Shown here: positions 17,201-29,989 of the stretch, in pieces
Position numbering within the stretch: the first letter of the stretch is position 1
How the letters are laid out: each line of letters opens with the position of its first letter
DNA from: a virus
Reading direction: 5' to 3' (one strand)
Length of the DNA stretch: 39,166 nucleotides
Virus record (IMG/VR): IMGVR_UViG_3300042863_000902
Span: 1-39,166 of that record
Made by a program: the position numbers and the translations under genes
The notes under the pieces: model-generated
What the model was told of the DNA's origin: nothing
Seen by the model: the letters and a program-made list of their open reading frames with translations, nothing else
Database searches by the model: none

Positions 17201-18270
17201 ATCAATTCACTTATACAATTGATGGTGCATTGGCAAATTCAACTACTGGATCTGTGTATAAAACATCAGGGATTATTACTATTACATCATTTGGTTCTGG
17301 TCAGTCTTACTATGCATTGAGGAAATCATTCCAGTCTTTGCCATTTGGAAATGTGATTGTTCCTAGTGGAATCGAGTATCTGAACGAGGATGAAGTCGTT
17401 AGGTTCTCTACTACTGGAACGCTACCATCTCCTCTTATTGCTGGAACTGACTACACGATCAAACTTGAAGGAAATAAATTTAAGGTTTATTCTGGATCAA
17501 CATTGCAAGTTTTAACTACTTCGGGGGTTGGTCAACTCAGCGTTGATATTATCAGAATATTCAATGTCTCTCCATCTACTAGCATTGATGCTGACCAAGC
17601 CCACTTCAATACTGGTGATGCCGTTGTTCCTCGCGCCAAAGAAGGAGATGTATTGCCAACTGGATTGACTGCTGGAGCGACATACTACGCTCGCAGGCTA
17701 GATAATAATTCATTTGAACTTTACGACACGCTTGTTCAGGCAAGAAATACTTCTTCTACTGCTGGGCGCAAGATATACACGACAACTGGAGAAACTGTGG
17801 AATCAACATTCTTTGTTGATTCAGTCACATTGCCAACATTTGTGAAGTCTGTATCGCAAGTCGATAAGCCAATTACTGAAGGTTATGTGTCGCTATACGC
17901 TTACGATTACGGACGCAGCAATGACATGACTTTGATTGGTCAGTATCATCCATCTGAAGTTAATCCTCAATATCGCAGGATTCGCATTGGCAAGCCTTGT
18001 GCTTGGGCTAGGATTTCTTACAGGATTCAGACTCCATCAATTAGCAGTGTTTACGATTTTATTCCTCTTGAGCAAGAGCGAGCAATCATTACTGCTGTTC
18101 ACGCTTGCGATTTGGAAGATAAAGATTTCGCAGATCAATCGGCTCGATACTGGCAGATTGCTTTTGCTTATCTAAAGAATCAACAGGAAAGCATTGATGG
18201 ACACGCAATGTCAGTCCCGCAGATAAATTCTATCACTTATGGCGATACGACTGATCCAGTAATGTTCTAA
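14281..18270 (+). CDS. tail adaptor-like protein with large repeat insertion
   Basis: 1329 residues. The ends look like one helical podovirus head-tail adaptor: residues 1-60 (VSQIFEECAEILGTTDESKI) and the C-terminal 110 (YRRIRIGKPCAWARISYRIQ; EQERAIITAVHACDLEDKDF). Between them are about 1,000 residues of beta-rich repeats. One type, GTLPSPLxxGTxYYxxxxxxxxF, occurs about six times between residues 195 and 1150. A second, SSNHGYAAGDTVTITGA-like followed by a GYN motif, occurs three times (near 624, 677 and 939). Glycine-rich VTAGGSGYGAAPDVTFS-type strands also recur. Such repeats suggest an appendage on the tail, perhaps for cell binding. It precedes a nozzle-like gene with a one-base TAATG overlap, the T7 gp11-gp12 order. 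Confidence 0.5.
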   Translation: MFVSQIFEECAEILGTTDESKIFRKIQQAVATLMESGHWTHSVADVDVCTGWDKCSVTLPRGIDVPLAVNIDGSPTYFRNRLFQYHVNKGGMFNSVEWAWDDRGYVATLMDIIQPSQLVAVAELENDVGKTIRVLGKDQNNRTIRSQLANGTGVDGLLIPIHSQSDFAYGTITPDDATVKTRSVAITPINLFTGATAHGLSSGQGMSVTATTGTIPVALENGQTYYIGVIDAFTVQLFNDPLNAEALQYPIDLQSIVGAGNLTFRDTREAEVVTALQLSSAPAFTLDTANQITFPTGQSLPSPLNSNQTYYANAEDATHLTVFESENDAKKNINPVYTTGTTGPVPPALGTLYADIRKQIDPQTTLTFSVRHYYNDGDQVQAFTASGTLPKPLIANQNYFVNVIDPFIVSLHENKADALASSPTNLINPITIKDSGSGTNSIVKLIPASVTVGSESQVTATGLNIAAPSGSGAQFQAITVGSVVSVQVTAGGSGYGAAPDVTFSDPPSPPPGSNIETSTATGYAIIVSGAVNQVVITSAGLGYSSPPTITFSSGAAKATAKIQTSFISGFRKVSGGLNYTEPPQVKITGGNGSGATATATINSNVLNVSSITRSGSTATVTTSSAHGYSVGQSVTISGAAPNAYNGTKVITSVPLTTISGVTISRSGTIATAITPTPHDYSTGDVVTISGATPIGYNGTFVVTVYSNPNEFTYSVASTLTTPATGTITSSVPDPTGNTFQYAIAAGTATPATGTITSYSGDVTQLNVVTSGFGYTGTPTVTISPSTGVFVSFTSTGLLPSPLVSGTAYRAEAPLNTSAGNFTVKGADFSDINITSSGTGTLYVSLSRAFSVTFNNNWEGEFTNLATGQELYFGTDYLLPNTTPSIDNGVTPFYLNKINNTTGKIYNTSLNAIAGLTSDGSPISITSITSVSTAATVTTSSNHGYAAGDTVTITGASPIGYNKSQAVIISTPALNQFTYTIDGALANSTTGSVYKTSGIITITSFGSGQSYYALRKSFQSLPFGNVIVPSGIEYLNEDEVVRFSTTGTLPSPLIAGTDYTIKLEGNKFKVYSGSTLQVLTTSGVGQLSVDIIRIFNVSPSTSIDADQAHFNTGDAVVPRAKEGDVLPTGLTAGATYYARRLDNNSFELYDTLVQARNTSSTAGRKIYTTTGETVESTFFVDSVTLPTFVKSVSQVDKPITEGYVSLYAYDYGRSNDMTLIGQYHPSEVNPQYRRIRIGKPCAWARISYRIQTPSISSVYDFIPLEQERAIITAVHACDLEDKDFADQSARYWQIAFAYLKNQQESIDGHAMSVPQINSITYGDTTDPVMF

Positions 18271-20402
18271 TGAAAAGCGCACAGATAACTTCAGGAAGAG
18301 AAGTCAAAGCATCTTCTGGCTGGATTCTAGGCGTGAACTCAGTTCGCAATCCTTGGGCATTGCCTGATAATCAAATCAAATGGGCCGTAAATTGCTCTGT
18401 TCGCGGCGGAATAGTCCAGACTAGGCCGGGATACTCTATGAGGCTTTCTCTGCCTCCCGGCAACTTCCAAGGTGGAATTTTATTTTCTGCAAACAAGCAA
18501 GCCAGCGCATCTGATACAATCGTTCAAAATGGAGTAACAAAAATTATTCCAGCGCAAATTTACAATCCAGACGGAACAACATCTTTGGCTGATGAATTGC
18601 CGTATGTATTGTTCGCGGTTAATGGCAGTGTTTACTATTCTCCATTCCCAATTATTCAGCCAAAAAATTGGGAGGATTTTCGTCTAAAAAATATCAAGCT
18701 CGATCCATCTGTTGACCAACTTGTTTTTACATCAGCAACACAAACTGCACAGGTTTCAACTGGTGGAGATGTAACTGTTACTCCATCTCATCGTATCGTT
18801 GTGATTCAAGATGGAATTTCTGCTCCCGCATATTGGGATGGATCAAATCAGACTGGTATCCAGACTGCATCTATTCCTATTGGATACTGGATGGCATATA
18901 GTGGGAATAGGTTGTGGGTTGCCTCTAAAAATATTGTTCTTGCATCTGACTTGGGCGACCCCACATCTTTTACTGAAAGATTGACTGGGGCTGGCCGTGG
19001 AGACTTTGCATTCGCTCGCGTTGTTACTGGAATGACGAACTATATCGGTCAGAACAATGACACGAAACTCGTTGTTTTTACTGATCGTGCAACATACTCG
19101 CTTGCAAGTGGAATCTATGATCGAACGCAATGGGCAAGCACGGCAAACTTCCAGACTACCTTGTATCCAACGATTGGGTGTGTTGCTGGAAAATCAATTG
19201 CGTTTCAAGCTGGTCAGCTTTGGTGGTATTCTCAAGGCGGATTGGTTTCTGCGGATGTCGCCGCATCTGCATACATAACATCTCAGTCTGTTTATAGAGA
19301 TATTGAAATGGCAAGAGTCAAATCTTACATGGCTGGAGACACCAGTAAGATTTGCGCGATGAACTTTGAGAACTATCTTCTCTATTCTGTTCCATATTTG
19401 GAGCCGTGCAACTCTGCTACAATGGTTCTTGATTATGCAGCGGCGGCAGAATGGTCTTCTCAAAGGACTCCAGCATGGTCTGGTGTATGGACTGGAACAA
19501 GGCCCGTAGAATGGATTTCTGGTGTGATTGACGGAACTCCTCGCTGCTTCCATTTCTCAGTTGACTATTCCGCAACAAATGATGGTTCATACAACCATCT
19601 TTGGGAGGCATTCACTCAGAATCGCGCTGATACATATTTTGATATTGATGTTGATGGTAACATTACAGAAAAAGTCAATCGCATTTATTCCCAGATGGAG
19701 ACTGGGCTTTTGGGTGATGGATTAGACTATAAGCAATTTCAATATGCAGAAATTGAGGCTTGCGAAATTGGTGGAACTGTGGATGTCAAGGTTTCGTATC
19801 GTGGATCAAAAGGATTCTATCAAAATATTCTTGAGACTAGATTACTTGCGGTAACGGAAGATTATCAATGGGTCAATACTGACTACGCTGACGAGATTGC
19901 AAAATTAGGATTTCTGAACACGCAATACCGCAGACTAGTTACTGAAAACTCTCAGCGTAGACAATCAGCCATTACTTGTGAGTCCGTTCTTACAAGCGAT
20001 ATTGATAAAGCATTCTCCGTATTGATCGAATGGTGCGGGGAGTTTGGTGTGGAGGCACTTCGCATATTCATTGATCCTTGGAGCGAGCGCAGCACAGGTG
20101 TCCCGCAAGCTCCAGAAACTAAATCTTGTGTTACATCTCAAGACGGAACAAGTCTTGAAATTGATTTGCTTCCTACTCCATATGAGCAAGCTGACACAAC
20201 ACAAAAATCTTGGTGGGCAAAAGAATTCAGAACTGTCACACTTTCCTGCACATCTAATCCAGCAAAATCAATTTCAGCTACTGCATCGGCAAGCTATCTT
20301 TCAAGCATTTCTCAAATTGATGCCAAGAATCAAGCTGGCGAATTAGCTCAAGTTGCAGCAAATCAGGCAGCGCAACAATATCTATATCAGAATCCTTGTT
20401 AA
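18270..20402 (+). CDS. probable tail nozzle (tubular protein B-like)
   Basis: 710 residues, no signal or membrane segment. The start (GVNSVRNPWALPDNQIKWAV then RGGIVQTRPGY) is typical of large podovirus tail proteins with a beta-propeller body, in which decorated strands like YWDGSNQT and MAYSGNRLWVAS recur. Together with the preceding adaptor-like gene it fits the T7 gp11/gp12 pair forming the tail tube. C-terminus is helical and Gln/Ala-rich (AGELAQVAANQAAQQYLYQN). Assignment rests on pattern and order, not a proven homology. Confidence 0.5.
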   Translation: MKSAQITSGREVKASSGWILGVNSVRNPWALPDNQIKWAVNCSVRGGIVQTRPGYSMRLSLPPGNFQGGILFSANKQASASDTIVQNGVTKIIPAQIYNPDGTTSLADELPYVLFAVNGSVYYSPFPIIQPKNWEDFRLKNIKLDPSVDQLVFTSATQTAQVSTGGDVTVTPSHRIVVIQDGISAPAYWDGSNQTGIQTASIPIGYWMAYSGNRLWVASKNIVLASDLGDPTSFTERLTGAGRGDFAFARVVTGMTNYIGQNNDTKLVVFTDRATYSLASGIYDRTQWASTANFQTTLYPTIGCVAGKSIAFQAGQLWWYSQGGLVSADVAASAYITSQSVYRDIEMARVKSYMAGDTSKICAMNFENYLLYSVPYLEPCNSATMVLDYAAAAEWSSQRTPAWSGVWTGTRPVEWISGVIDGTPRCFHFSVDYSATNDGSYNHLWEAFTQNRADTYFDIDVDGNITEKVNRIYSQMETGLLGDGLDYKQFQYAEIEACEIGGTVDVKVSYRGSKGFYQNILETRLLAVTEDYQWVNTDYADEIAKLGFLNTQYRRLVTENSQRRQSAITCESVLTSDIDKAFSVLIEWCGEFGVEALRIFIDPWSERSTGVPQAPETKSCVTSQDGTSLEIDLLPTPYEQADTTQKSWWAKEFRTVTLSCTSNPAKSISATASASYLSSISQIDAKNQAGELAQVAANQAAQQYLYQNPC

Positions 20403-20403
20403 T

Positions 20404-20658
20404 ATGCCATCCATTACAACAGCAACAAAGCAAGTAACTCAATTCCCATTCAGATACATTTCGCCATTTAATGACGATCCAGTTGTTCCATTGTATTCGT
20501 CAGTTCCATTGTTTAATCCTCAATCTGGATGCTTACCGTGTGCTGCCTGTGGAAATTATTCTGACCGCAAAAAAATCATTGCTCAACAAGCAATCCGATT
20601 TAAAGATTACATTCCTAACGAAATTGCAGGGAGCAATCCAAAGGTTGGATTTAATTAA
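20404..20658 (+). CDS. small protein with CxxCxxC motif
   Basis: 84 residues; start at ATG 20404, one base after the previous stop, is preferred over an upstream in-frame ATG inside that gene. A GCLPCAACGN segment near residues 38-47 may bind a metal. The rest is unremarkable. Possibly a minor tail component, from position. Confidence 0.55.
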   Translation: MPSITTATKQVTQFPFRYISPFNDDPVVPLYSSVPLFNPQSGCLPCAACGNYSDRKKIIAQQAIRFKDYIPNEIAGSNPKVGFN

Positions 20659-20663
20659 TAAAT

Positions 20664-21053
20664 ATGAAAACCAGAATCGACTATCGACTCATACCTAAAG
20701 ACTCATTTGAATTTGGAAATTTACAAGACTTTGCTGAGTCGTTTGACCACAAGATTAACAATCATCCGAACATCAATGTTTACGCTCATTATCGGGATGG
20801 TGAGTTGTTTGGGTATTCTGATCATGTTTTCATTCCTGTTGTCTATCCAGCTTTTCACCCGGCTCATACTAGGCCGCAAGATGTAATCCAAGTAATGAGC
20901 GATTGGCGATCTCACGCTCAACTTTCTGGAGGACTTGGATATATTGGAGTTCCACTTATTAATGATCGACCAAAATTTACTAATGATGTTATGAATAAAT
21001 TGGGATTGACTAAGATGGATAGGGAAATTTATAGTTACGATTCATTGACTTAA
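20664..21053 (+). CDS. conserved-looking phage protein, unknown
   Basis: 129 residues, mixed alpha/beta with an aromatic middle (YSDHVFIPVVYPAFHPAHT). Starts behind a TTAATAAAT-ATG context. Lies between tail and ejection-protein genes. Not recognised; an assembly or acetyltransferase-like fold are possibilities without direct evidence. Confidence 0.55.
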   Translation: MKTRIDYRLIPKDSFEFGNLQDFAESFDHKINNHPNINVYAHYRDGELFGYSDHVFIPVVYPAFHPAHTRPQDVIQVMSDWRSHAQLSGGLGYIGVPLINDRPKFTNDVMNKLGLTKMDREIYSYDSLT

Positions 21054-21054
21054 A

Positions 21055-21987
21055 ATGGGTGGAGCTTCAACAGTAAACGCAAACAGGTATTTTTCTAAAC
21101 GCGATCCCTCGCGTGACATTGCTATTGCTACTGCAATGATGCAAGCGCAACAGCAACAGATGCAGAATCAAGCAGAAATGCTTAAAATGTATTCTGAAAT
21201 GGCTCCAGAGCAACAGAGATATGATGCAGCCGCTCAATCTCGTAAGGCCGCAGAACTTGGGCTTGGTAACATTTTGCGCCAACGAGAACTGGAGCGTATT
21301 TCCAATCCTCAAGAAGCCGCAATGCGACTCTCTCAATCAAAGCAGATTGAAGACCTTACTGCACAGCAAAATGCGGATCAGTATATGCGCGAGTATATGA
21401 GGACTCAAGGATTGCCAACGCAATATGAGACTGGCCTTGGCGACTCTACTATTGGCCGCGCTGCAATGTATGATCGTGCGCTTGCAGCTAAACAATCATA
21501 CGAAGAAAATCTTGCAGCACAGCGTCAAGCCTATCTTGCATCACAGCAAGCTCCAGTTGGTGGATTATCTCCAGAGACATCTATTGCTGGAAAACAGGCT
21601 GCTCAAGCGCAAAATCTAGCTTCCATGGAGGCATATAAGCAGGGAATGCTTGGGAATGTTGGACAATTTGGTCAGACTGGATTTCAGTCTGCTATGAATC
21701 AATTTGCAAATCTTGGCGGAATCCAGCAAGCCAATCAGCAGTCCCAAATGCGCTATCAGCAAGCCATGCTTGACAATCAAGCTCAAAATCTAGCTTCTCA
21801 ACGCGCAATGACAGGCGCATATATTCAAGCTGGTGGAAATGTGGCGTCTTCTGCTATTGGTGCTGCTGGGAAAGCAGGATCAGGAGGAGGAGGCGAAATT
21901 ACTGGATTTGGAGGACAACAGTATTCCCCCCAAACATCAGCAACTGGCGGTAAATTTTACGCTCCATCTAGCGGAAGAATTTTTTAA
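21055..21987 (+). CDS. Q/A-rich probable internal virion protein A
   Basis: 310 residues, very rich in Q, A and M (MMQAQQQQMQNQAEMLKMYS), predicted mostly helical, ending in a Gly/Ser-rich, weakly hydrophobic tail (IGAAGKAGSGGGGEITGFGG). Such proteins in podoviruses are ejected with the DNA and form a channel across the cell envelope. It is a paralog of the next gene: NQAEMLKMYSEM pairs with NQAELLKMASEM, RQRELERISNPQEA with RSRELERLTDPEA, and APVGGLSPETSI with APIGGLDPATAI. Confidence 0.6.
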   Translation: MGGASTVNANRYFSKRDPSRDIAIATAMMQAQQQQMQNQAEMLKMYSEMAPEQQRYDAAAQSRKAAELGLGNILRQRELERISNPQEAAMRLSQSKQIEDLTAQQNADQYMREYMRTQGLPTQYETGLGDSTIGRAAMYDRALAAKQSYEENLAAQRQAYLASQQAPVGGLSPETSIAGKQAAQAQNLASMEAYKQGMLGNVGQFGQTGFQSAMNQFANLGGIQQANQQSQMRYQQAMLDNQAQNLASQRAMTGAYIQAGGNVASSAIGAAGKAGSGGGGEITGFGGQQYSPQTSATGGKFYAPSSGRIF

Positions 21988-21991
21988 ATAA

Positions 21992-22777
21992 ATGAATAGA
22001 CCTGACGACACTTCAATGTTTGCCTTGGTTGCGGCTAAATCTGCAACAGGTGGAAGGTATCTTCAGAACCAAGCTGAGTTGCTTAAAATGGCATCAGAGA
22101 TGCCTCCAGCAATGCAGACATTTGATACCGCAAGGACATCGAAGGAAGCGGCTGAATTTGGCGTCGAAAATATCATTCGTTCGCGTGAACTTGAGCGGTT
22201 GACTGATCCAGAAGCTGCGAAAATGCGGCATGAAATGGGAAGTCGCGTAGCAGAGCTTTCCAGCATGGAGGCTATTCAAAGAAGTGCAAAAGACTGGGCG
22301 ATGAAGCAGGGTCTTGGCTCTGGATATTCAAGCGGAGTTGAAGGAACGATTGGACGCTCTGCCATGTTTGATGCTGGCACAGAAGCTGGTCGTCAGGCTC
22401 GTCTCCGTGCATTGGCACTACAGCAAGGATATTTGGCTCAAACTCCAGCACCAATTGGGGGACTAGATCCAGCTACTGCTATTCAAGCTGAAATGCAAGC
22501 AAAAGCTGCTAATCTCCAAGCGATGCAGCAATACCAGCAAAATGTCCTTGCAGGAGGTCAGAGATTGCAACAATCTACATCTGATTGGATCAATCAAAAC
22601 CTTGGAGAATTGCAGCAAGCCAATAATGTTGCCCAACAGAATAGGCAAAATTACGAGCAGGCAATGTATCAAAATGCTACTCAAAATGCAGCATCTAAAA
22701 ATGCGATGACTGGTCAAATGATTGGGGCTGGTGGAGCGGTTACTGGTGCGGCGATTGGTGCGGCGATTATTATTTAA
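21992..22777 (+). CDS. Q/A-rich probable internal virion protein B
   Basis: 261 residues, paralogous along its whole length to the gene before it, which argues for tandem duplication. Ends in a glycine-zipper hydrophobic segment (IGAGGAVTGAAIGAAIII) that could insert in a membrane during DNA ejection. Start follows TTTTTTAAATAA-ATG. Its stop shares one base with the start of the PAPS-reductase-like gene. Confidence 0.6.
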   Translation: MNRPDDTSMFALVAAKSATGGRYLQNQAELLKMASEMPPAMQTFDTARTSKEAAEFGVENIIRSRELERLTDPEAAKMRHEMGSRVAELSSMEAIQRSAKDWAMKQGLGSGYSSGVEGTIGRSAMFDAGTEAGRQARLRALALQQGYLAQTPAPIGGLDPATAIQAEMQAKAANLQAMQQYQQNVLAGGQRLQQSTSDWINQNLGELQQANNVAQQNRQNYEQAMYQNATQNAASKNAMTGQMIGAGGAVTGAAIGAAIII

Positions 22778-23613
22778 TGAGACAACACCTAATAAATAAA
22801 ACAATAAATAAAATAAAGGAATGGAATAAAAGGTGGCCTAGAGCAGTTGTTTTGTGGAGCGGAGGGAAAGACTCTACGGCATTGCTTCACCTTATCCGAT
22901 ACGGAGCAGAGATTGATGTTCCAGTTATTCAATATCGTCAGCCAAAATTCCGTGAGCGATATGCTTACTCTGATCGCTTAATCAAAGAATGGGATTTGGA
23001 GGTTTACGAATATCCTCCAATGAAGGTAGCATTGGCAGATGGGCCAGATGTCAATACTGGCGAGGTTCGATTTGACATGCTTCACTACTTCCAATGGGGC
23101 AGAGACTGCGTGATTTTGTCACTTGGAACTGAAAAGCCAAAAGAAGGAGAGAAATTCCTATGTGGAGTGACTGACTTCTTACAGCGTCCTACTGGAACAT
23201 TTAACTGGCCTTGGGGTGCTGTTTATATTGGAACAAAGTTTGAGGATACGGATTTGATTAAGGGTCATGTTCCGTTAGCTCAAGACATCAGAATTGTTGA
23301 CGGATCTCCCGTATCGCTTTATCCAATGCGCGACTGGACAGATGAGGAAATCTTCTGGTATTTAGAAGATAACGGGATTGAGCCTGATCCTACTCGATAC
23401 ATTAAAGAAAATCAGCAGTGGAAAAATAATCCAGATAAGTCGCTAAATGCTGATTTCTATCCGACTTGTTTTAATTGCGTTAATCGCCATTTAGATCGTC
23501 ATGTCCACTGCCCTAAACTCAATGCTACAATCACAAATATCAGCGACATGGCTCCATACGAAGATATTGTTATTGATGACTTGGGATTTCGCCCCGTTGA
23601 ATGGAAGAAGTAA
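22777..23613 (+). CDS. PAPS reductase-family (PP-loop) enzyme
   Basis: 278 residues. The PP-loop SGGKDST (28-34) binds ATP or a sulfonucleotide, as in adenylyl-sulfate/PAPS reductases and related PP-loop ATPases (DNA phosphorothioation DndC, tRNA thiolation). A second family block is YPMRDWTDEEI (182-192). A cysteine set, CFNC at 231-234 and Cys245 in HVHCPK, could hold metal or an Fe-S cluster. Function in the phage is open: assimilatory sulfur metabolism, nucleic-acid sulfur modification, or nucleotide handling. It lies inside the ejection-protein block, starts on a TAATG overlap, and overlaps a cysteine-cluster gene by 13 bases. Confidence 0.8.
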   Translation: MRQHLINKTINKIKEWNKRWPRAVVLWSGGKDSTALLHLIRYGAEIDVPVIQYRQPKFRERYAYSDRLIKEWDLEVYEYPPMKVALADGPDVNTGEVRFDMLHYFQWGRDCVILSLGTEKPKEGEKFLCGVTDFLQRPTGTFNWPWGAVYIGTKFEDTDLIKGHVPLAQDIRIVDGSPVSLYPMRDWTDEEIFWYLEDNGIEPDPTRYIKENQQWKNNPDKSLNADFYPTCFNCVNRHLDRHVHCPKLNATITNISDMAPYEDIVIDDLGFRPVEWKK

Positions 23614-23897
23614 CTGAAAATGATTGTATTTCATGTGGTGCTTGTTGCTCTTATAAATGGTCTTGGCCTGTTCTTAGACGAGATAGATCGGATTGCGAAA
23701 AGATCCCTAAAGAAATGCAAAGAATGGATTATCCTTTAATGAAAACTGAAAACAATAGATGTATTGCACTTGAAGGCATCGTTGGAAATTGCGTATCATG
23801 CTCAATTTACTTTGACAGACCTAATTCTTGTAGGCAATTTAAGCCGAATGGCGACTTATGCCTTGAAGCACGAAAAAAACTAAACATTAAAAATTAA
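23601..23897 (+). CDS. YkgJ-family cysteine-cluster protein
   Basis: 98 residues. CISCGACC (Cys9, 12, 15, 16) begins the typical YkgJ cluster, followed by Cys54, CVSCSIY (64, 67), RP at 73-74 and CRQF with Cys77. This CxxCxxCC...CxxY..RPxxCRxF pattern is conserved in the family, whose members are thought to bind Fe-S or zinc; the reaction is unknown. The 13-base overlap with the PP-loop gene suggests that the two act as a unit, perhaps one supplying electrons or a cluster to the other. Confidence 0.8.
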   Translation: MEEVTENDCISCGACCSYKWSWPVLRRDRSDCEKIPKEMQRMDYPLMKTENNRCIALEGIVGNCVSCSIYFDRPNSCRQFKPNGDLCLEARKKLNIKN

Positions 23898-23910: not shown

Positions 23911-24417
23911 ATGGGCGGATCACGAAAAAGCAGTAGCGGAAGGAGTGGCAGCAGCGGAGGAGGACAATCTTCCCAAGACCCAATGATGGCCTATCTTGCT
24001 ATGATGCAGCAGCAACAGGCGGCTCAAGCTGAAGCAGCGAGGCAAGCCCAACGGCAAGCAATCATTCAATCTCAAAAACAATCCGCACTTGCATCTGCCC
24101 GTGAAGGACAAATGGGGGCGCAGCAGTCCTTGTCTCAAGCTGGTTCAATGCAACAAGCTAAAGATATTTCCGCGCAGCAGGCTCAACAACAAGCCGCATC
24201 TGCCGCTGGGGCTTCTGCTATTGGTGTAGGATTTGATATTGCAAAAGCGCAACAAGAGCAATCAGCAAACCTTGCTGGTGCTGGAGCTATTCCATCAACC
24301 GCTCCTCTGCCATTTTATGGGATGGATAGCATGAATGCTGGTGCTGGATCAACTGGTAAATCATCTAATTTATTTAATCTTCCAAAAACTAGTGGCATAA
24401 CATTTGGAGGACAATAA
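23911..24417 (+). CDS. Q/A/S-rich small virion protein, copy 1
   Basis: 168 residues, low-complexity start (MGGSRKSSSGRSGSSGGGQS) then a Gln/Ala helix (MAYLAMMQQQQAAQAEAARQ). C-terminus SSNLFNLPKTSGITFGGQ matches that of the next gene (SNTFQLPSIFNLTFGGS), so the pair are diverged duplicates. Probably internal virion or tail proteins. No metal or enzyme motif. Confidence 0.6.
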   Translation: MGGSRKSSSGRSGSSGGGQSSQDPMMAYLAMMQQQQAAQAEAARQAQRQAIIQSQKQSALASAREGQMGAQQSLSQAGSMQQAKDISAQQAQQQAASAAGASAIGVGFDIAKAQQEQSANLAGAGAIPSTAPLPFYGMDSMNAGAGSTGKSSNLFNLPKTSGITFGGQ

Positions 24418-24419
24418 TC

Positions 24420-24986
24420 ATGGCTGATATGTTTCCTTGGCTAACTGATAAGGGCAAAAAGAGGATGGGCATTGCCTATGCCACTGACTCTGATAGACGC
24501 TACTCTTCAGGAAGCAGCTCTTCAGGAAGCAGCTCTTCAGGAAGCAGCTCTTCAGATGCCTTGCTGGCATTTCAACAGCAACAAGCCGCTCAAGCCGCTC
24601 GAGCCGCTCGAGCCGCTCGCCGTCAGGAAATGATTAATCAGCAGAAGGAGGCTGGATTTGCTTCCGCTCAACAAGGCGAGGCTCTTGCTAGACAGCAATT
24701 AGGCCAGTTTGGAATGCAGCAGCAAGCAGCCGACAAGGAAGCATTGACTCGCGCACAGCAAGCGCAAGGCGCGGCAGGATCACAAGCAGTTGCTGGTGGA
24801 GCGCAACCACAAACCCAAGCACAGAAACTAAATTCTATGGGAATTGGAGGTGCTGGCGCAATAGCTGGACTTAGAGATGTATATGGTGGACAAGTCGCAG
24901 CTAATTTGGGTGCAGGAGGAACTGGACAACCATCAAATACATTTCAACTACCTTCTATTTTTAACCTTACTTTCGGAGGCTCCTAA
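24420..24986 (+). CDS. Q/A/S-rich small virion protein, copy 2
   Basis: 188 residues, same architecture as the preceding gene with a conserved C-terminal LPSIFNLTFGGS-like end. A GGAGG lies nine bases before the ATG but falls inside the upstream gene's codons. Contains a short Ser-rich tandem repeat and an AAQ/AAR repeat. Stop overlaps the next start by one base (TAATG). Confidence 0.6.
   Translation: MADMFPWLTDKGKKRMGIAYATDSDRRYSSGSSSSGSSSSGSSSSDALLAFQQQQAAQAARAARAARRQEMINQQKEAGFASAQQGEALARQQLGQFGMQQQAADKEALTRAQQAQGAAGSQAVAGGAQPQTQAQKLNSMGIGGAGAIAGLRDVYGGQVAANLGAGGTGQPSNTFQLPSIFNLTFGGS
24503..24555 (+). repeat. 15-base tandem repeat, 3.5 copies
   Basis: Unit CTCTTCAGGAAGCAG at 24503-24517, 24518-24532 and 24533-24547 plus eight bases of a fourth, coding SSGSS repeats. 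Perfect identity suggests recent slippage. A second, nine-base array (C-A/G-AGCCGCT type, four copies) follows at 24582-24617. Confidence 0.9.
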
Positions 24987-26635
24987 TGGCTGACTACTCT
25001 TTCAATCCTCAATTCGCTAACCTATCTGGTTTGCAACCTTTGCCTGCAATTGATGTGACTCGCGGTGCAAATCTTCAGTTTCGTCCACTTGATAAAATTG
25101 AAATTCAGTCTTCTCGACCAGAGCTTGTTGCTGAAGGTATCGCTGGTGCTATTAGCAATATTGCAAAGGGTGCGCTAGGTGGAATTACCGCTAGGTATGA
25201 GAAGAAAGAGGAGGAAGCTAAGGAGACGCGCAAGTTCGCTCAAGAAGAAAAAATTGCAAGAATTAAAGCTTCACAAAGTGCTTTTGAACAAAAAGAGCAA
25301 CAAAAGTGGGAGCTTGAAAAAATGAAAGAGCAAGATAAGTTGATCAAGGGGAGAGTCAAGGACGTTCTTCCTCCAGATGTTCAATTTGAGGACTATGAAT
25401 CTCTTCCAACTGACGAAAATCAAACTACTGATACTGAAAATTCTAATTCATTAACTGGAGAACTTAATCCTGAAGGAACAACTATTGATGAAGATGGAAA
25501 TCTAATAGAAGTGCCAAGCGAGATTCTGCAAGAAGACAATAAGACTGGACTTGTTTCCCCACAAGATGCAAACGCTATCGCTCTTAATGTTGCAAAACAA
25601 ATCGATCCAGCAACAGGGCTTCCATTGTCTGCACTTCCAGAATATCTATCTGCCTCAACTGGTGCTGGGCCAATCGCTCCATTAGCTGAAATGCCATCAT
25701 TGGGGCTTGATAGGGTAGAAACATCATTCATTCAGCCAGAACAAGAACAAAAGATAGCCGCCATGAGTGCTGAACTAGGTAAAATTTCAGAAGTTAAGCC
25801 AGAGCCAGAAAAACAAATTCCAGTTGGGCAAGCAAAAGCTGTTAAATACTTCCAAAGTCAAGAAAAGGCAAATGAGGAATATGCTAAAATGTATCCGGGC
25901 TGGAAGGCCGCGCAATTACCAGAATTAGTTCAAACTAAATCTGGGCCTGCATTTGCTGTAAAGCGTGAAATAATTTCACCAGAAGAACAAGAAGAATTAG
26001 CTAGAAAAAAAAGAAAAGAAGATCTTGAAATTTCTCAAGCTGCATCTGCCCCAGAAATGTCTAAAGAGCAAAATGCTATTTTGTTGTCTCAAATAACAAG
26101 GCTTGAACAAGATAAAACATATTCAAAAGCGTTGGAAACAAAAGATTCAGAAGCTACAATATTTAAGGCATTATCTCAAGAAAATGGATTATCTGATATT
26201 GCCGCAATCAATGCGTTTCAAAGATTAGTTGATCCGGGAGTTGCTGTTAGAGAGGGTGACGTTGCTCTTATTCAGTCTGCTCTTGCATTTCAAGATAAAT
26301 ACAGTCCTCAATATATCACCTCACAATTTACTAGGGGAGCAAAACTTCCAGAAGAGGATCGTGAAAGAATGCGAATTTTAACAAAAGAGCTTGCTCGAAT
26401 GGCTCTTGAAAAAGCAAATGAAGGCCCAATTCAAAAATACAGAACATTAACTAAAAAGACTGGCATTGATCCTGATTTGTTAGTAATGCCATTTGATATT
26501 GAGTCTCCAAAAGAACAAAAATTAGGCAAAGAGGAGTTAATAAAAAAACTTAATAACGCAAGTGAAGAATATAGAAATTCTCCACAATTTCAACAAGACA
26601 GAGATCGCCTAAAAGAACTTCTAAGAACAAACTAA
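24986..26635 (+). CDS. large probable internal virion protein, unknown
   Basis: 549 residues. Residues 45-130 form a charged coiled coil (YEKKEEEAKETRKFAQEEKI), followed by an acidic, asparagine/threonine-rich linker and helical C-terminus (EERKEDLEISQAAS-like stretches). No enzymatic motif recognised. Its place between small Q/A-rich proteins and the 799-residue membrane-active protein fits the cluster of ejected virion proteins of podoviruses. Confidence 0.55.
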   Translation: MADYSFNPQFANLSGLQPLPAIDVTRGANLQFRPLDKIEIQSSRPELVAEGIAGAISNIAKGALGGITARYEKKEEEAKETRKFAQEEKIARIKASQSAFEQKEQQKWELEKMKEQDKLIKGRVKDVLPPDVQFEDYESLPTDENQTTDTENSNSLTGELNPEGTTIDEDGNLIEVPSEILQEDNKTGLVSPQDANAIALNVAKQIDPATGLPLSALPEYLSASTGAGPIAPLAEMPSLGLDRVETSFIQPEQEQKIAAMSAELGKISEVKPEPEKQIPVGQAKAVKYFQSQEKANEEYAKMYPGWKAAQLPELVQTKSGPAFAVKREIISPEEQEELARKKRKEDLEISQAASAPEMSKEQNAILLSQITRLEQDKTYSKALETKDSEATIFKALSQENGLSDIAAINAFQRLVDPGVAVREGDVALIQSALAFQDKYSPQYITSQFTRGAKLPEEDRERMRILTKELARMALEKANEGPIQKYRTLTKKTGIDPDLLVMPFDIESPKEQKLGKEELIKKLNNASEEYRNSPQFQQDRDRLKELLRTN

Positions 26636-26638
26636 ATA

Positions 26639-29038
26639 ATGACTGACATTGAAAAAGAGTTATTGGAAGAAATAGAGCAAGAAAAGAAGGTTGAAGAACC
26701 AACAACTGCTGCCGGAATGGTTGGCGCAGTAACGCGAGGAGCAGCAAAGCCATTAACTCAGGCTATTACTGGAGGAATGATTGGTGGCGCAATGGCTCCA
26801 TACGCCGCTCCAGTAAGTATTCCACTCGGTGCAGGTCTATCTGTTATTGGAAGTCAAGTATCAGAGGCTTTTGGAGGCCCAGATGTTCCAACCGCACTAG
26901 GTCAACTTACAACTACTCTTGTAAATAAATTTGCAGGAACTCACTATTCTGCTCCAGAAGATGCGACAACTGAATTACTAGATCGTCTTGGAGTTCAAAA
27001 TCCAAGGTCAAATGCTGAAGAGATTATTAAAGAAGTAACCAAAGGTGTTGTTGAAATAGGAAGTGGTTCTGGAGCGTTAAAGGTAGGAGGAGAATTGCTT
27101 AAAGCAGGTAAGGGAGCCAAGCTTCTTCAATTTCTAGGACAAAAGCCAGCGCAACAAGCTATTGCTGGTGGAGCATCAATGGGAACATCTGAGGCAGCAA
27201 AACAAGAAGGCGCAACTCCACTTCAGCAACTTGGCGTTGGTCTTGCAACAGGAGTTGGTGTTGGGGGAGCAGTTTCAGCACTAGAACCGGGAGCTAACGC
27301 ATTGCAATCATTAAGAGATGCTGATATTCCTATTACTGAGAAATCAATTAATGCATTAAAGAATCTTTTCGCCCCGCAAAAGCAAGTTGTTCCTCCTACT
27401 ATTACAGAAACAACAGCTAAGGCACTACAGGGAAGCAAGGAGGCTAAAAAGGCTCTTGCTGAAGCTGCCGCTGGAGAAGCTGAAATTGGTGGGTTGAAAG
27501 TTGGAGAAGCAGCAAAAGAACTTGGATTCTTGAAAGAAGAAGTTCCTCAAGAGTTTTTGTCTGGAAGTCCAGAGTTTCAGGCATTGGTTAAAAAGGGTGC
27601 CGCCTATGGTGAATCTCTATTAGCTAAAAGACAAAATGAATTTCTGACAAGAGTATCTACAAAGGCCCGTGAAGTTGCTCAAAAGGCTGGATCAACTGAA
27701 GACTTGAGCGCATTGAGTGATGACATCAAGGATACAATTCTAAATGAGTCAAAGAAATATCAAGCTGATGAGCAGAATCTGTTTAATCAGTTATCAACAA
27801 AACCAGTTGTTAGGACTCAGCATGATCCTCAAAATACAATAAGTGCCATTGATACTGCATTGATGGATAGTGGTGTTCCAGAAACTATTCTTAATAAAAT
27901 TAAGAATAATCAAAAATTGAGCGCAAAGGAATCTGAACTTTTTAATCAAAAGTTTAAGTCAATTAGACCAGTTCAAAAGAAAATATTTGAAACGCTATAC
28001 ACAGATAAAAAACCAACAATATCACAAATAAATGATATTAGGAAACAACTTGGCGAGTTTCTTTCTGGAGAAAAGGGTGTGTTTTCTAATGCAACTCGCG
28101 GAGAGGTTGAAAACTTCTACGGGTTGTTAAGCGATGATTACAATACAGCATTGTCTCAATTTCCTGAATTAAAAGATGTAAAAGATGCTGCATTTACTTT
28201 GACCAAATCAAGAAAAGCACATGAAGAGAATGTTGTGAATCTTTTTGGGGATGAATTATCTCAGAGCCTTTCGGGTCAGGTTTCAAGGGCTATTGGCGCA
28301 ACAGCTAAAGGTGACGCTGATAAGATTAAGAGCATATTATCTGCCGTTCCAGAAGAATATAGGGCCAATGTAGTTGCAACTGGAATCCAAAACGCCATTT
28401 CAAAACAAGGTAAATTTGATATGGCAACATTTACAAAATGGTATAATTCTTTGAAGGGTCAAAAGACAGCATACGACGCATTATTTAATGAACTGCCTCC
28501 TGATGCAAAATATCAATTTGATAATCTAAATATCTTGTCTGAAAACATTCAAAACGCAACAAAGCAAACATCAAAGATTGGCGATATTAAGCAAGAAATA
28601 TCTAAAAACCAAAAAATTGGATCAACTCTTTGGTCTATAATGAAAGGATTGATAACTGGTTCCGTTGTTTACAGTGCATCCAAACAGTTAAATGTTCCCC
28701 CAGAACTTGCAATTGCACTAACAAGTGCAGTGGCTGGTGGAACAACAATAAGATCAATTGGAAAAGATCAACGACAAGCGTTATTGAGCCTTGATGAAAT
28801 GCTTGCATCTGGAGATTTCGCTCAACTTGTTGCTAAATCTAAAGGCAATGCAGATATGTTTAATCGCTCCATTCCTCAATTTATGCGTGAGCCAGTTTAT
28901 GTGAAGTTTGCTAAAGAAGTCGGGCCTGAAGCAGCAAAGAACTTACTATACACATCTGGAAGATACTTGCAGGAATCTCAAGAACCAGCAAAAAAAGAGA
29001 AGCTGGCATTGCAAGGGATGTATAATCCCACTAAATAA
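26639..29038 (+). CDS. large probable DNA-ejection protein, membrane-active
   Basis: 799 residues. An acidic start (IEKELLEEIEQEKKVEEP) leads to hydrophobic Gly/Ala-rich segments (about 23-70, with GAVTRGAAKPLTQAITGGMI and GLSVIGSQVSEAFGG) and another Gly/Ala-rich stretch (about 155-210). The middle is helical; a second hydrophobic region lies near 660-705. Such multi-segment amphipathic proteins in this position are typical of internal core proteins that form the DNA exit channel. No lysozyme or transglycosylase motif was seen. Confidence 0.6.
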   Translation: MTDIEKELLEEIEQEKKVEEPTTAAGMVGAVTRGAAKPLTQAITGGMIGGAMAPYAAPVSIPLGAGLSVIGSQVSEAFGGPDVPTALGQLTTTLVNKFAGTHYSAPEDATTELLDRLGVQNPRSNAEEIIKEVTKGVVEIGSGSGALKVGGELLKAGKGAKLLQFLGQKPAQQAIAGGASMGTSEAAKQEGATPLQQLGVGLATGVGVGGAVSALEPGANALQSLRDADIPITEKSINALKNLFAPQKQVVPPTITETTAKALQGSKEAKKALAEAAAGEAEIGGLKVGEAAKELGFLKEEVPQEFLSGSPEFQALVKKGAAYGESLLAKRQNEFLTRVSTKAREVAQKAGSTEDLSALSDDIKDTILNESKKYQADEQNLFNQLSTKPVVRTQHDPQNTISAIDTALMDSGVPETILNKIKNNQKLSAKESELFNQKFKSIRPVQKKIFETLYTDKKPTISQINDIRKQLGEFLSGEKGVFSNATRGEVENFYGLLSDDYNTALSQFPELKDVKDAAFTLTKSRKAHEENVVNLFGDELSQSLSGQVSRAIGATAKGDADKIKSILSAVPEEYRANVVATGIQNAISKQGKFDMATFTKWYNSLKGQKTAYDALFNELPPDAKYQFDNLNILSENIQNATKQTSKIGDIKQEISKNQKIGSTLWSIMKGLITGSVVYSASKQLNVPPELAIALTSAVAGGTTIRSIGKDQRQALLSLDEMLASGDFAQLVAKSKGNADMFNRSIPQFMREPVYVKFAKEVGPEAAKNLLYTSGRYLQESQEPAKKEKLALQGMYNPTK

Positions 29039-29383: not shown

Positions 29384-29989
29384 ATGAGGTTTGAGGCTAA
29401 ATCAATAGATCCATCTTTAATTTCTAATTCAGAATATGCGGTTATCGCAGATAGCATCATAGTTCCTGTAATTGATTATGGTGCTAGGGAAGATAATTCT
29501 TTCTTAGTTGCCATTAGAAATCTTGTTCAAGTCTATCTTTCGAGTAAAGATATTTCCGATTCAGAATCTATTGCAGATAAAGTTGAGAATATAGTTTGTG
29601 ATGGACTAGGGCTGAATATTGAGGATCACAATAATTGGGTTGAGAGGGCGGGGGATGAATCTAGGAGAGCGCAAGAAGAGATCCAGTCAGCAATACTAAG
29701 GGATGGCCCTAGATTTTGGGCAGAACTGCATCTATTCTCGTTTCGCAATAGGAACTGCGAGGATCGCGCATTCATCGAGAGTTGGTTTAAGAACTGGGTT
29801 GAATCTATTACGTGGAATGGATGCCCGTGCAAGGATCACTTTGAGGATTATTGCAAGCATTTTCCTCCTAACTTTTCTGATTTTTGGAGATGGGGAATCG
29901 GGATTCATAATAATGTAAACAAACGAAACGGAAAAAAACAATTATCTCTTAATGAGGCAGAACAGTTATGGACAAGACGGCTACTATAA
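29384..29989 (+). CDS. Erv1/ALR-like sulfhydryl oxidase-type protein
   Basis: 201 residues. The first 100 match nothing I recognise. Residues 108-197 follow the Erv1/ALR plan: GPRFWAELHLF (the G-x-x-x-W-x-x-LH block), a cysteine site CPC at 147-149 where family members usually have CxxC, then HFEDYCKHFPP, FWRWGIGIHNNVN (HNxVN at 175-179) and a final W. Erv1/ALR proteins use FAD to make disulfides. The CxC instead of CxxC is unusual and may change or remove redox function. It could help fold Cys-containing fibre proteins, or be a fold-only relative. Confidence 0.6.
   Translation: MRFEAKSIDPSLISNSEYAVIADSIIVPVIDYGAREDNSFLVAIRNLVQVYLSSKDISDSESIADKVENIVCDGLGLNIEDHNNWVERAGDESRRAQEEIQSAILRDGPRFWAELHLFSFRNRNCEDRAFIESWFKNWVESITWNGCPCKDHFEDYCKHFPPNFSDFWRWGIGIHNNVNKRNGKKQLSLNEAEQLWTRRLL

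Follow-up and report, generated by a model that had tools for sequence, protein, structure and literature searches.

Virome studies count PF01507 genes as cysH, an auxiliary metabolic gene, and assign them roles in host sulfur metabolism or oxidative defence. A study of Lake Baikal, for example, found cysH domains regularly in freshwater phages and suggested that they serve to protect the host from reactive oxygen species (PMC8066274). TtuA, a tRNA thiolase with a PP-loop ATPase fold, first adenylates its tRNA and uses a [4Fe-4S] cluster for the sulfur transfer that follows (PMC7138817). Among proteins with cysteine clusters, the flagellin lysine methylase FliB carries a CX4CX3CC motif that has been likened to PF03692 and binds [4Fe-4S] (PMC8598068). 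How does a phage gene pair that joins a PF01507 protein to a PF03692 protein of the YkgJ type compare with these systems? The earlier note on this DNA knew of no described role for such a pairing, and none was found in the papers searched.

The locus and its gene order

The window, that is the whole stretch of DNA analysed here, is a virus record of 39,166 bases. Relatives reach 57.8-71.4 kb, many of them near 62 kb, which indicates that the window is a partial genome. The features that matter for the argument are these.

18270..20402, + strand: 710-aa protein at the tail/nozzle position, 11 cysteines, first in the conserved gene order (phrog_511 internal virion protein, 5e-5)
20407-20658, + strand: 83-aa protein with a CLPCxxCGN (CxxCxxC) motif
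20664..21053, + strand: 129-aa protein without cysteine, between the nozzle-position gene and the ejection block (no family match)
21055..21987, + strand: ejection-block protein copy A, cysteine-free, 310 aa, MGG start
21992..22777, + strand: ejection-block protein copy B, cysteine-free, 261 aa, paralogue of copy A
22775..22779, + strand: TAATG, in which the stop of the 261-aa gene and the start of the PP-loop gene share 1 nt
22777..23613, + strand: PP-loop ATP-pyrophosphatase-type protein of the PAPS_reduct family, 278 aa (PF01507, alignment and fold search)
23601..23613, + strand: 13-nt overlap of the PP-loop and YkgJ genes (sequence and junction alignment)
23601..23897, + strand: YkgJ-type cysteine-cluster protein, 98 aa (PF03692)
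23911..24417, + strand: small cysteine-free protein MGG...FGG, copy A, 168 aa
24420..24986, + strand: small cysteine-free protein copy B, 188 aa, paralogous to the 168-aa copy A
24986..26635, + strand: ejection-block protein, 549 aa, cysteine-free (by position)
26639..29038, + strand: DNA-transfer/ejection protein, 799 aa, cysteine-free (phrog_770, 3e-18; phrog_6704, 3e-38)
29384-29989, + strand: Erv1/Alr-like sulfhydryl oxidase, 201 aa, directly behind the ejection block (PF04777, E 2.2e-6)

The map bears out what had been read from the letters by eye: a PP-loop gene overlaps a CxxCxxCC YkgJ gene by 13 bases, and this cassette sits between two duplicated pairs, of 310/261 aa (43% identity, E 5e-49) and 168/188 aa (42% identity, E 3e-13). 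That the genes flanking the cassette encode virion proteins is something we infer from gene order and from the PHROG matches of the 799-aa and 710-aa proteins; the small flanking proteins (310/261 and 168/188 aa) have no family match themselves.

Some neighbours deserve a word of their own. Many relatives retain the 83-aa CLPCxxCGN protein, its gene placed after that for the 710-aa protein and before that for the 129-aa protein, and several small ejection-block proteins (window 21055 and 23911; L027, L061, L116 and others) end in a conserved F..P...(G)(I/L)TFGG tail. The Erv1/Alr-like protein has the FAD-linked sulfhydryl oxidase 3gwl_A as its best solved match (E 6e-8) and keeps the HNxVN motif, and its active-site cysteines read CPC (CxC), not CxxC; homologues (L344, L345, L346, L347 and L348) occur in the records of 5/23 relatives, and named phages gave no match. 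In one relative, G006, the endolysin (L170:2232-3689, - strand) is 485 aa long against 173 aa in the window, with an insert that begins at the WPWC cysteine and looks like an intein.

The PP-loop protein

The 278-aa protein bears VLWSGGKDSTALLHL and matches PF01507 above the cut-off (E 5.4e-7; 30.2 bits against 22.5), a family that is matched by 24/24 PP-loop family members. The earlier note had put weight on conserved PP-loop and cysteine residues, and they are indeed conserved. The SGGKDS loop is present in 194/194 aligned PP-loop proteins, a set selected with a near-identical motif, and all four cysteines of the protein (C129, C231, C234 and C245) are invariant in the same 194, as are T118, E119, R137, K154 and D159. 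Towards the C-terminus lies the cysteine motif NADxxPxCxNCxxRH...CPK. A relative reached through the YkgJ motif scan, L350, has a divergent SSGKDS loop next to its YkgJ motif.

The structure model has a pLDDT of 79 and is weaker around residues 121-140 and at the C-terminus. Which reaction does the fold point to? CysD, the PAPS domain of human FAD synthase, TtuA and APS reductase tie as its closest neighbours (Z 14.6-15.8), so the fold does not choose between them; the sulfur transferases NcsA and LarE are also among the neighbours, at Z ~11. By sequence, the solved structure that comes closest is CysD (1zun_A, E 8e-10 with a profile).

Is the protein then a CysH, as its match to phrog_424, named PAPS reductase, would have it? 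The ECGLH catalytic motif of CysH occurs in 0/194 PP-loop proteins, an alignment with 6vpu finds the PP-loop residues intact in the phage protein (GGKDS) and missing in CysH, and the CysH equivalog model NF002537 scores 16.8 bits against a cut-off of 154. Judged by sequence, with an intact PP-loop and ECGLH absent throughout, the protein is not CysH. Identity with CysD is unlikely (NF003587, 40.7 against a cut-off of 195; TIGR02039, 34.6 against 396.6), and so is a Dnd identity, the matches to the DndC model and in PADLOC being weak (E 0.02).

The YkgJ protein and the pairing

The partner has CISCGACC and matches PF03692 (E 1.7e-7; 32.3 bits against a cut-off of 23). Its eight cysteines (C9, C12, C15, C16, C54, C67, C77 and C87) are invariant; for the CxxCxxCC part this holds in 185 sequences that were themselves selected with C..C..CC. 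A sequence search found no PDB relatives, and the structure model is poor (pLDDT 53.5), too poor to use for the metal site.

Are the two genes a unit or chance neighbours? Scans of IMG/VR gave several hundred loci, and duplicates were removed before pairs were counted. YkgJ lies within 2.5 kb downstream in 171/199 distinct PP-loop genes; most of the unpaired ones run up against the end of their contig, and in five YkgJ is absent although 1.5 kb or more of sequence was there to hold it. Seen from the other side, a PP-loop gene stands upstream in 175/185 YkgJ genes. Because some loci had been found through one partner, pairs were recounted on loci new to each motif-only scan, and the informative loci proved to be paired in 29/31 YkgJ cases and 70/73 PP-loop cases. 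Adjacency in related phages, to which the earlier note had tied its proposal, is thus the rule. Exceptions exist: L072 has a PP-loop gene and YkgJ nowhere in its 49.7-kb contig, L185 has a PP-loop gene without YkgJ within 5 kb downstream, and in the fragments L353 and L370 YkgJ is elsewhere or alone. The pairwise protein distances of the two partners correlate (r 0.68), and dN/dS comes to ~0.03-0.06 in the PP-loop gene and to ~0.08-0.18 in YkgJ. The low dN/dS, the invariant cysteines and the adjacency in most informative loci of both kinds argue against chance. The PP-loop/YkgJ pair is a real and widespread unit, both genes of which are under strong purifying selection.

The junctions are tight. 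In the window the YkgJ gene opens with ATGG, whose TGG is the conserved terminal Trp codon (W276) of its PP-loop neighbour, and the upstream stop overlaps the PP-loop start by 1 nt in 105/172 loci scored and by 4 nt in 22/172. An earlier tally of 149 paired loci had 102 in which the partners overlap or nearly touch and 45 with 301-700 nt from the PP-loop stop to the YkgJ cysteine motif; in the loci read, these gaps hold small MGG proteins.

A different junction is seen in L107, L192-L231 (high-GC), L048, L067, L075 and L076, where the PP-loop stop is lost and the reading frame runs into YkgJ in another frame, in the high-GC loci for 246 nt past the DC codon. For the high-GC loci, a fusion of the two proteins by programmed frameshifting is not favoured, as an ATG, GTG or TTG stands at the junction (CTG in L198, L199, L201 and L202, where other loci have the YkgJ ATG), and the extension is an Ala/Pro/Thr/Ser-rich alternate frame, which also counts against fusion.

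The ejection-block context

Several phage groups have the cassette, and in each it comes directly after an ejection-type gene, a place that is kept in the gene-order variants (the window, L073/L283-like and L107/L196/L207-like). Promoter-like signals in the block are no commoner than in shuffled sequence. This, together with the start/stop overlap and the kept position, makes it likely that the cassette is expressed with the virion genes. The earlier note took the late, structural location as an argument against early metabolic takeover. The argument is reasonable but inconclusive, because ejection-block proteins can be delivered with the DNA.

Could the pair act on its neighbours? The seven flanking ejection-block proteins hold no cysteine in 2,404 residues, where the cysteine rate in the other late-strand genes of the window would predict 19.5 (P ~3e-9). 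Upstream proteins in relatives lack cysteine in 167/169 cases, and the other two have 1-2 cysteines near the ORF start, probably owing to over-long ORF starts. Disulfide or other cysteine-based redox chemistry on the neighbouring ejection proteins is rejected on these counts. Compared with G006, the PP-loop and YkgJ proteins are 91% and 87% identical, against 65, 70, 57, 40 and 34% for the neighbours of 310, 168, 188, 549 and 799 aa; the 129-aa and 710-aa proteins reach 91% and 85%. The pair exceeds most of the surrounding block in conservation. Since the flanking proteins are free of cysteine and most of them change at a much higher rate than the cassette, they are unlikely to undergo a thiol-redox or Fe-S step; a partner or substrate whose evolution is not tied to that of the ejection neighbours is favoured. 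Of the redox step on virion proteins that had been proposed, the part concerning the adjacent cysteine-free proteins is largely excluded, and the part that survives concerns the cysteine-containing proteins at capsid, nozzle and fibre positions. A virion target may lie among the conserved 129-aa and 710-aa proteins.

Distribution and hosts

The carriers are many uncultured lake and freshwater phages. Against 50,697 named phage records the PP-loop protein has no match at E 1e-5. Matches at E up to 10 are weak, several of them to CysD or 7-deazaguanine-type proteins, and were set aside, as was a YkgJ match in 'Acinetobacter phage MD-2021a' that sits among bacterial genes. A search of 84,980 prokaryote genomes returned one full-length match, L107, a 76-kb contig of a Chthoniobacter flavus MAG (Verrucomicrobiota). 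The left part of this contig has chromosomal-looking sequences (Smc-, Obg- and thymidylate-kinase-like, by eye) and phage genes follow, so that L107 is probably a prophage, barring a chimeric assembly, and suggests a Verrucomicrobiota host for one cassette-bearing lineage. Together with L107, contig 4 of G003 (L177-L180) is read as probable prophage that has the cassette beside chromosomal-looking genes of the Chthoniobacter MAG. A search of 388 genomes found the cassette in no further Verrucomicrobiota, and the 23 other YkgJ relatives met in genomes of this phylum all lack a PP-loop motif inside roughly 1.5 kb.

What could the pair do?

Tentatively, we read the pair as a conserved two-component adenylating enzyme, probably Fe-S-dependent, that would transfer sulfur, probably to a nucleic acid, and is made with the virion proteins. 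From what is known of the family, the PP-loop protein would bind ATP and adenylate the substrate. Its four cysteines would bind metal, a [4Fe-4S] cluster being the likeliest form, and YkgJ would be an Fe-S (or zinc) protein dedicated to this enzyme, to which it provides or passes on sulfur or electrons. The activated oxygen would then be replaced by sulfur, as in TtuA/NcsA-type thiolases. What would the target be? Since the ejection neighbours are cysteine-free and mostly fast-diverging and the cassette is not, it would be a conserved molecule other than the ejection proteins, most likely a nucleic acid such as a tRNA of the infected cell, although sulfur transfer to a nucleic acid of that cell is a speculative step. 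Among 28 proteins of the 61.8-kb relative G006 scanned by Pfam (the commonest 25 of 27 families), no cysteine desulfurase, sulfur carrier, CysN partner or Dnd/Ssp partner gene was seen, and the window proteins scanned gave no Dnd/Ssp partner either; with no donor gene seen in G006, the sulfur would come from the host. Some findings pull the other way. Adenylyl-transferases without any sulfur transfer (FAD synthase and CysD) are among the nearest fold matches, the PP-loop gene persists without YkgJ in L072 and L185, and neither the window nor the two relatives scanned have tRNA genes.

Rather unlikely, and the alternative that survives best, is that the pair modifies a virion protein at a non-cysteine residue during assembly, for example by an adenylation-dependent step on a terminus or side chain. 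The MGG-starting ejection neighbours, the conserved 129-aa protein and the nozzle-position protein would be the candidate substrates. The position directly behind an ejection-type gene, with a start/stop overlap in most loci, fits this, as do the small MGG proteins interleaved with the pair in many relatives and the MGG start of 92/169 upstream proteins. However, the ejection neighbours mostly diverge much faster than the cassette, no modification by such a pair is known, and the upstream protein is non-MGG in L075, L076, L107 and L207, on which account MGG was rejected as a universal substrate signal.

It is improbable that YkgJ serves in metal or Fe-S supply, the metal centre it loads being that of the PP-loop enzyme or of cysteine-bearing proteins at nozzle, capsid or fibre positions. 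The invariant cysteines, eight in YkgJ and four in the PP-loop protein, favour such a role, and possible recipients hold cysteines, 11 in the nozzle-position protein and 7 in the 402-aa protein at 583-1791, but the invariant ATP-pyrophosphatase loop is left unexplained and the flanking ejection proteins have no cysteine to offer. Slightly less probable again is that both proteins are packaged and ejected into the next cell to act at the start of infection: the cassette lies within the ejection-protein block in every phage group seen, yet gene order alone is weak, no tested sequence feature links the cassette proteins to packaging, and both hold cysteines, unlike the cysteine-free ejection proteins.

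DndC is also a PP-loop PAPS_reduct protein. A DndC-like phosphorothioate or other sulfur modification of phage DNA, which the earlier note had raised, is nevertheless very unlikely: against the weak PADLOC matches stand a negligible DndC match and the scans described above, in which no DndA/B/D/E or Ssp partner appeared. Least credible of all is auxiliary sulfate assimilation by a CysH or CysD, likewise raised before, since the PF01507 and phrog_424 matches and the cysH domains of freshwater phages (PMC8066274) are outweighed by the absent ECGLH, the intact loop, scores far below the CysH and CysD cut-offs, a scan of G006 proteins in which no CysN was seen, and the virion-block context.

If the sulfur-transfer reading is placed in a wider frame, it is conceivable, with somewhat more doubt still, that the PP-loop enzyme and its eight-cysteine YkgJ Fe-S partner form a sulfur- or adenylyl-transfer system not described before, which a large group of uncultured phages makes and perhaps ejects; at least one lineage of the group probably infects Verrucomicrobiota. 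The system would put a new modification on a nucleic acid or protein, and some freshwater 'cysH' genes would belong to it and not to sulfate assimilation. PF01507 would give this clade the label that the Lake Baikal cysH genes carry (PMC8066274). As the clade shows, a cysH call can be in error, and a partner gene under strong conservation is passed over without comment. Identifying the modification would yield a new phage modification enzyme and a function for a phage YkgJ protein.

Comparison with known systems

CysH (PAPS/APS reductase) shares PF01507 and the fold (Z 12.6-14.6) with the phage protein and differs from it in ECGLH, in the state of the PP-loop residues and in the virion-block context of the phage gene. 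CysD, the small subunit of ATP sulfurylase, is closer in sequence: both have an intact PP-loop (GKDS) and a W-T-D segment in common, but the phage protein falls far under the model cut-off and has the extra C-terminal motif NADxxPxCxNCxxRH...CPK. The tRNA thiolases TtuA, NcsA and TtcA resemble the modelled phage protein in their PP-loop ATPase fold (TtuA, Z 14.7; NcsA, Z 11.3), although a sequence search finds no match between them. The cysteine-held [4Fe-4S] site of TtuA and NcsA would be compatible with the invariant four-cysteine set of the phage protein; TtuA uses three cluster cysteines and TtuB as sulfur donor (PMC7138817), whereas the phage system has four invariant cysteines and a YkgJ partner. 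FliB, compared by motif only, has a cysteine cluster of a type similar to that of the phage YkgJ, with CX4CX3CC spacing instead of CX2CX2CC. Within the YkgJ/YcgN family (PF03692) the phage protein has the CxxCxxCC cluster, eight invariant cysteines and a score above the Pfam cut-off, and what sets it apart is that it is paired with a PP-loop gene.
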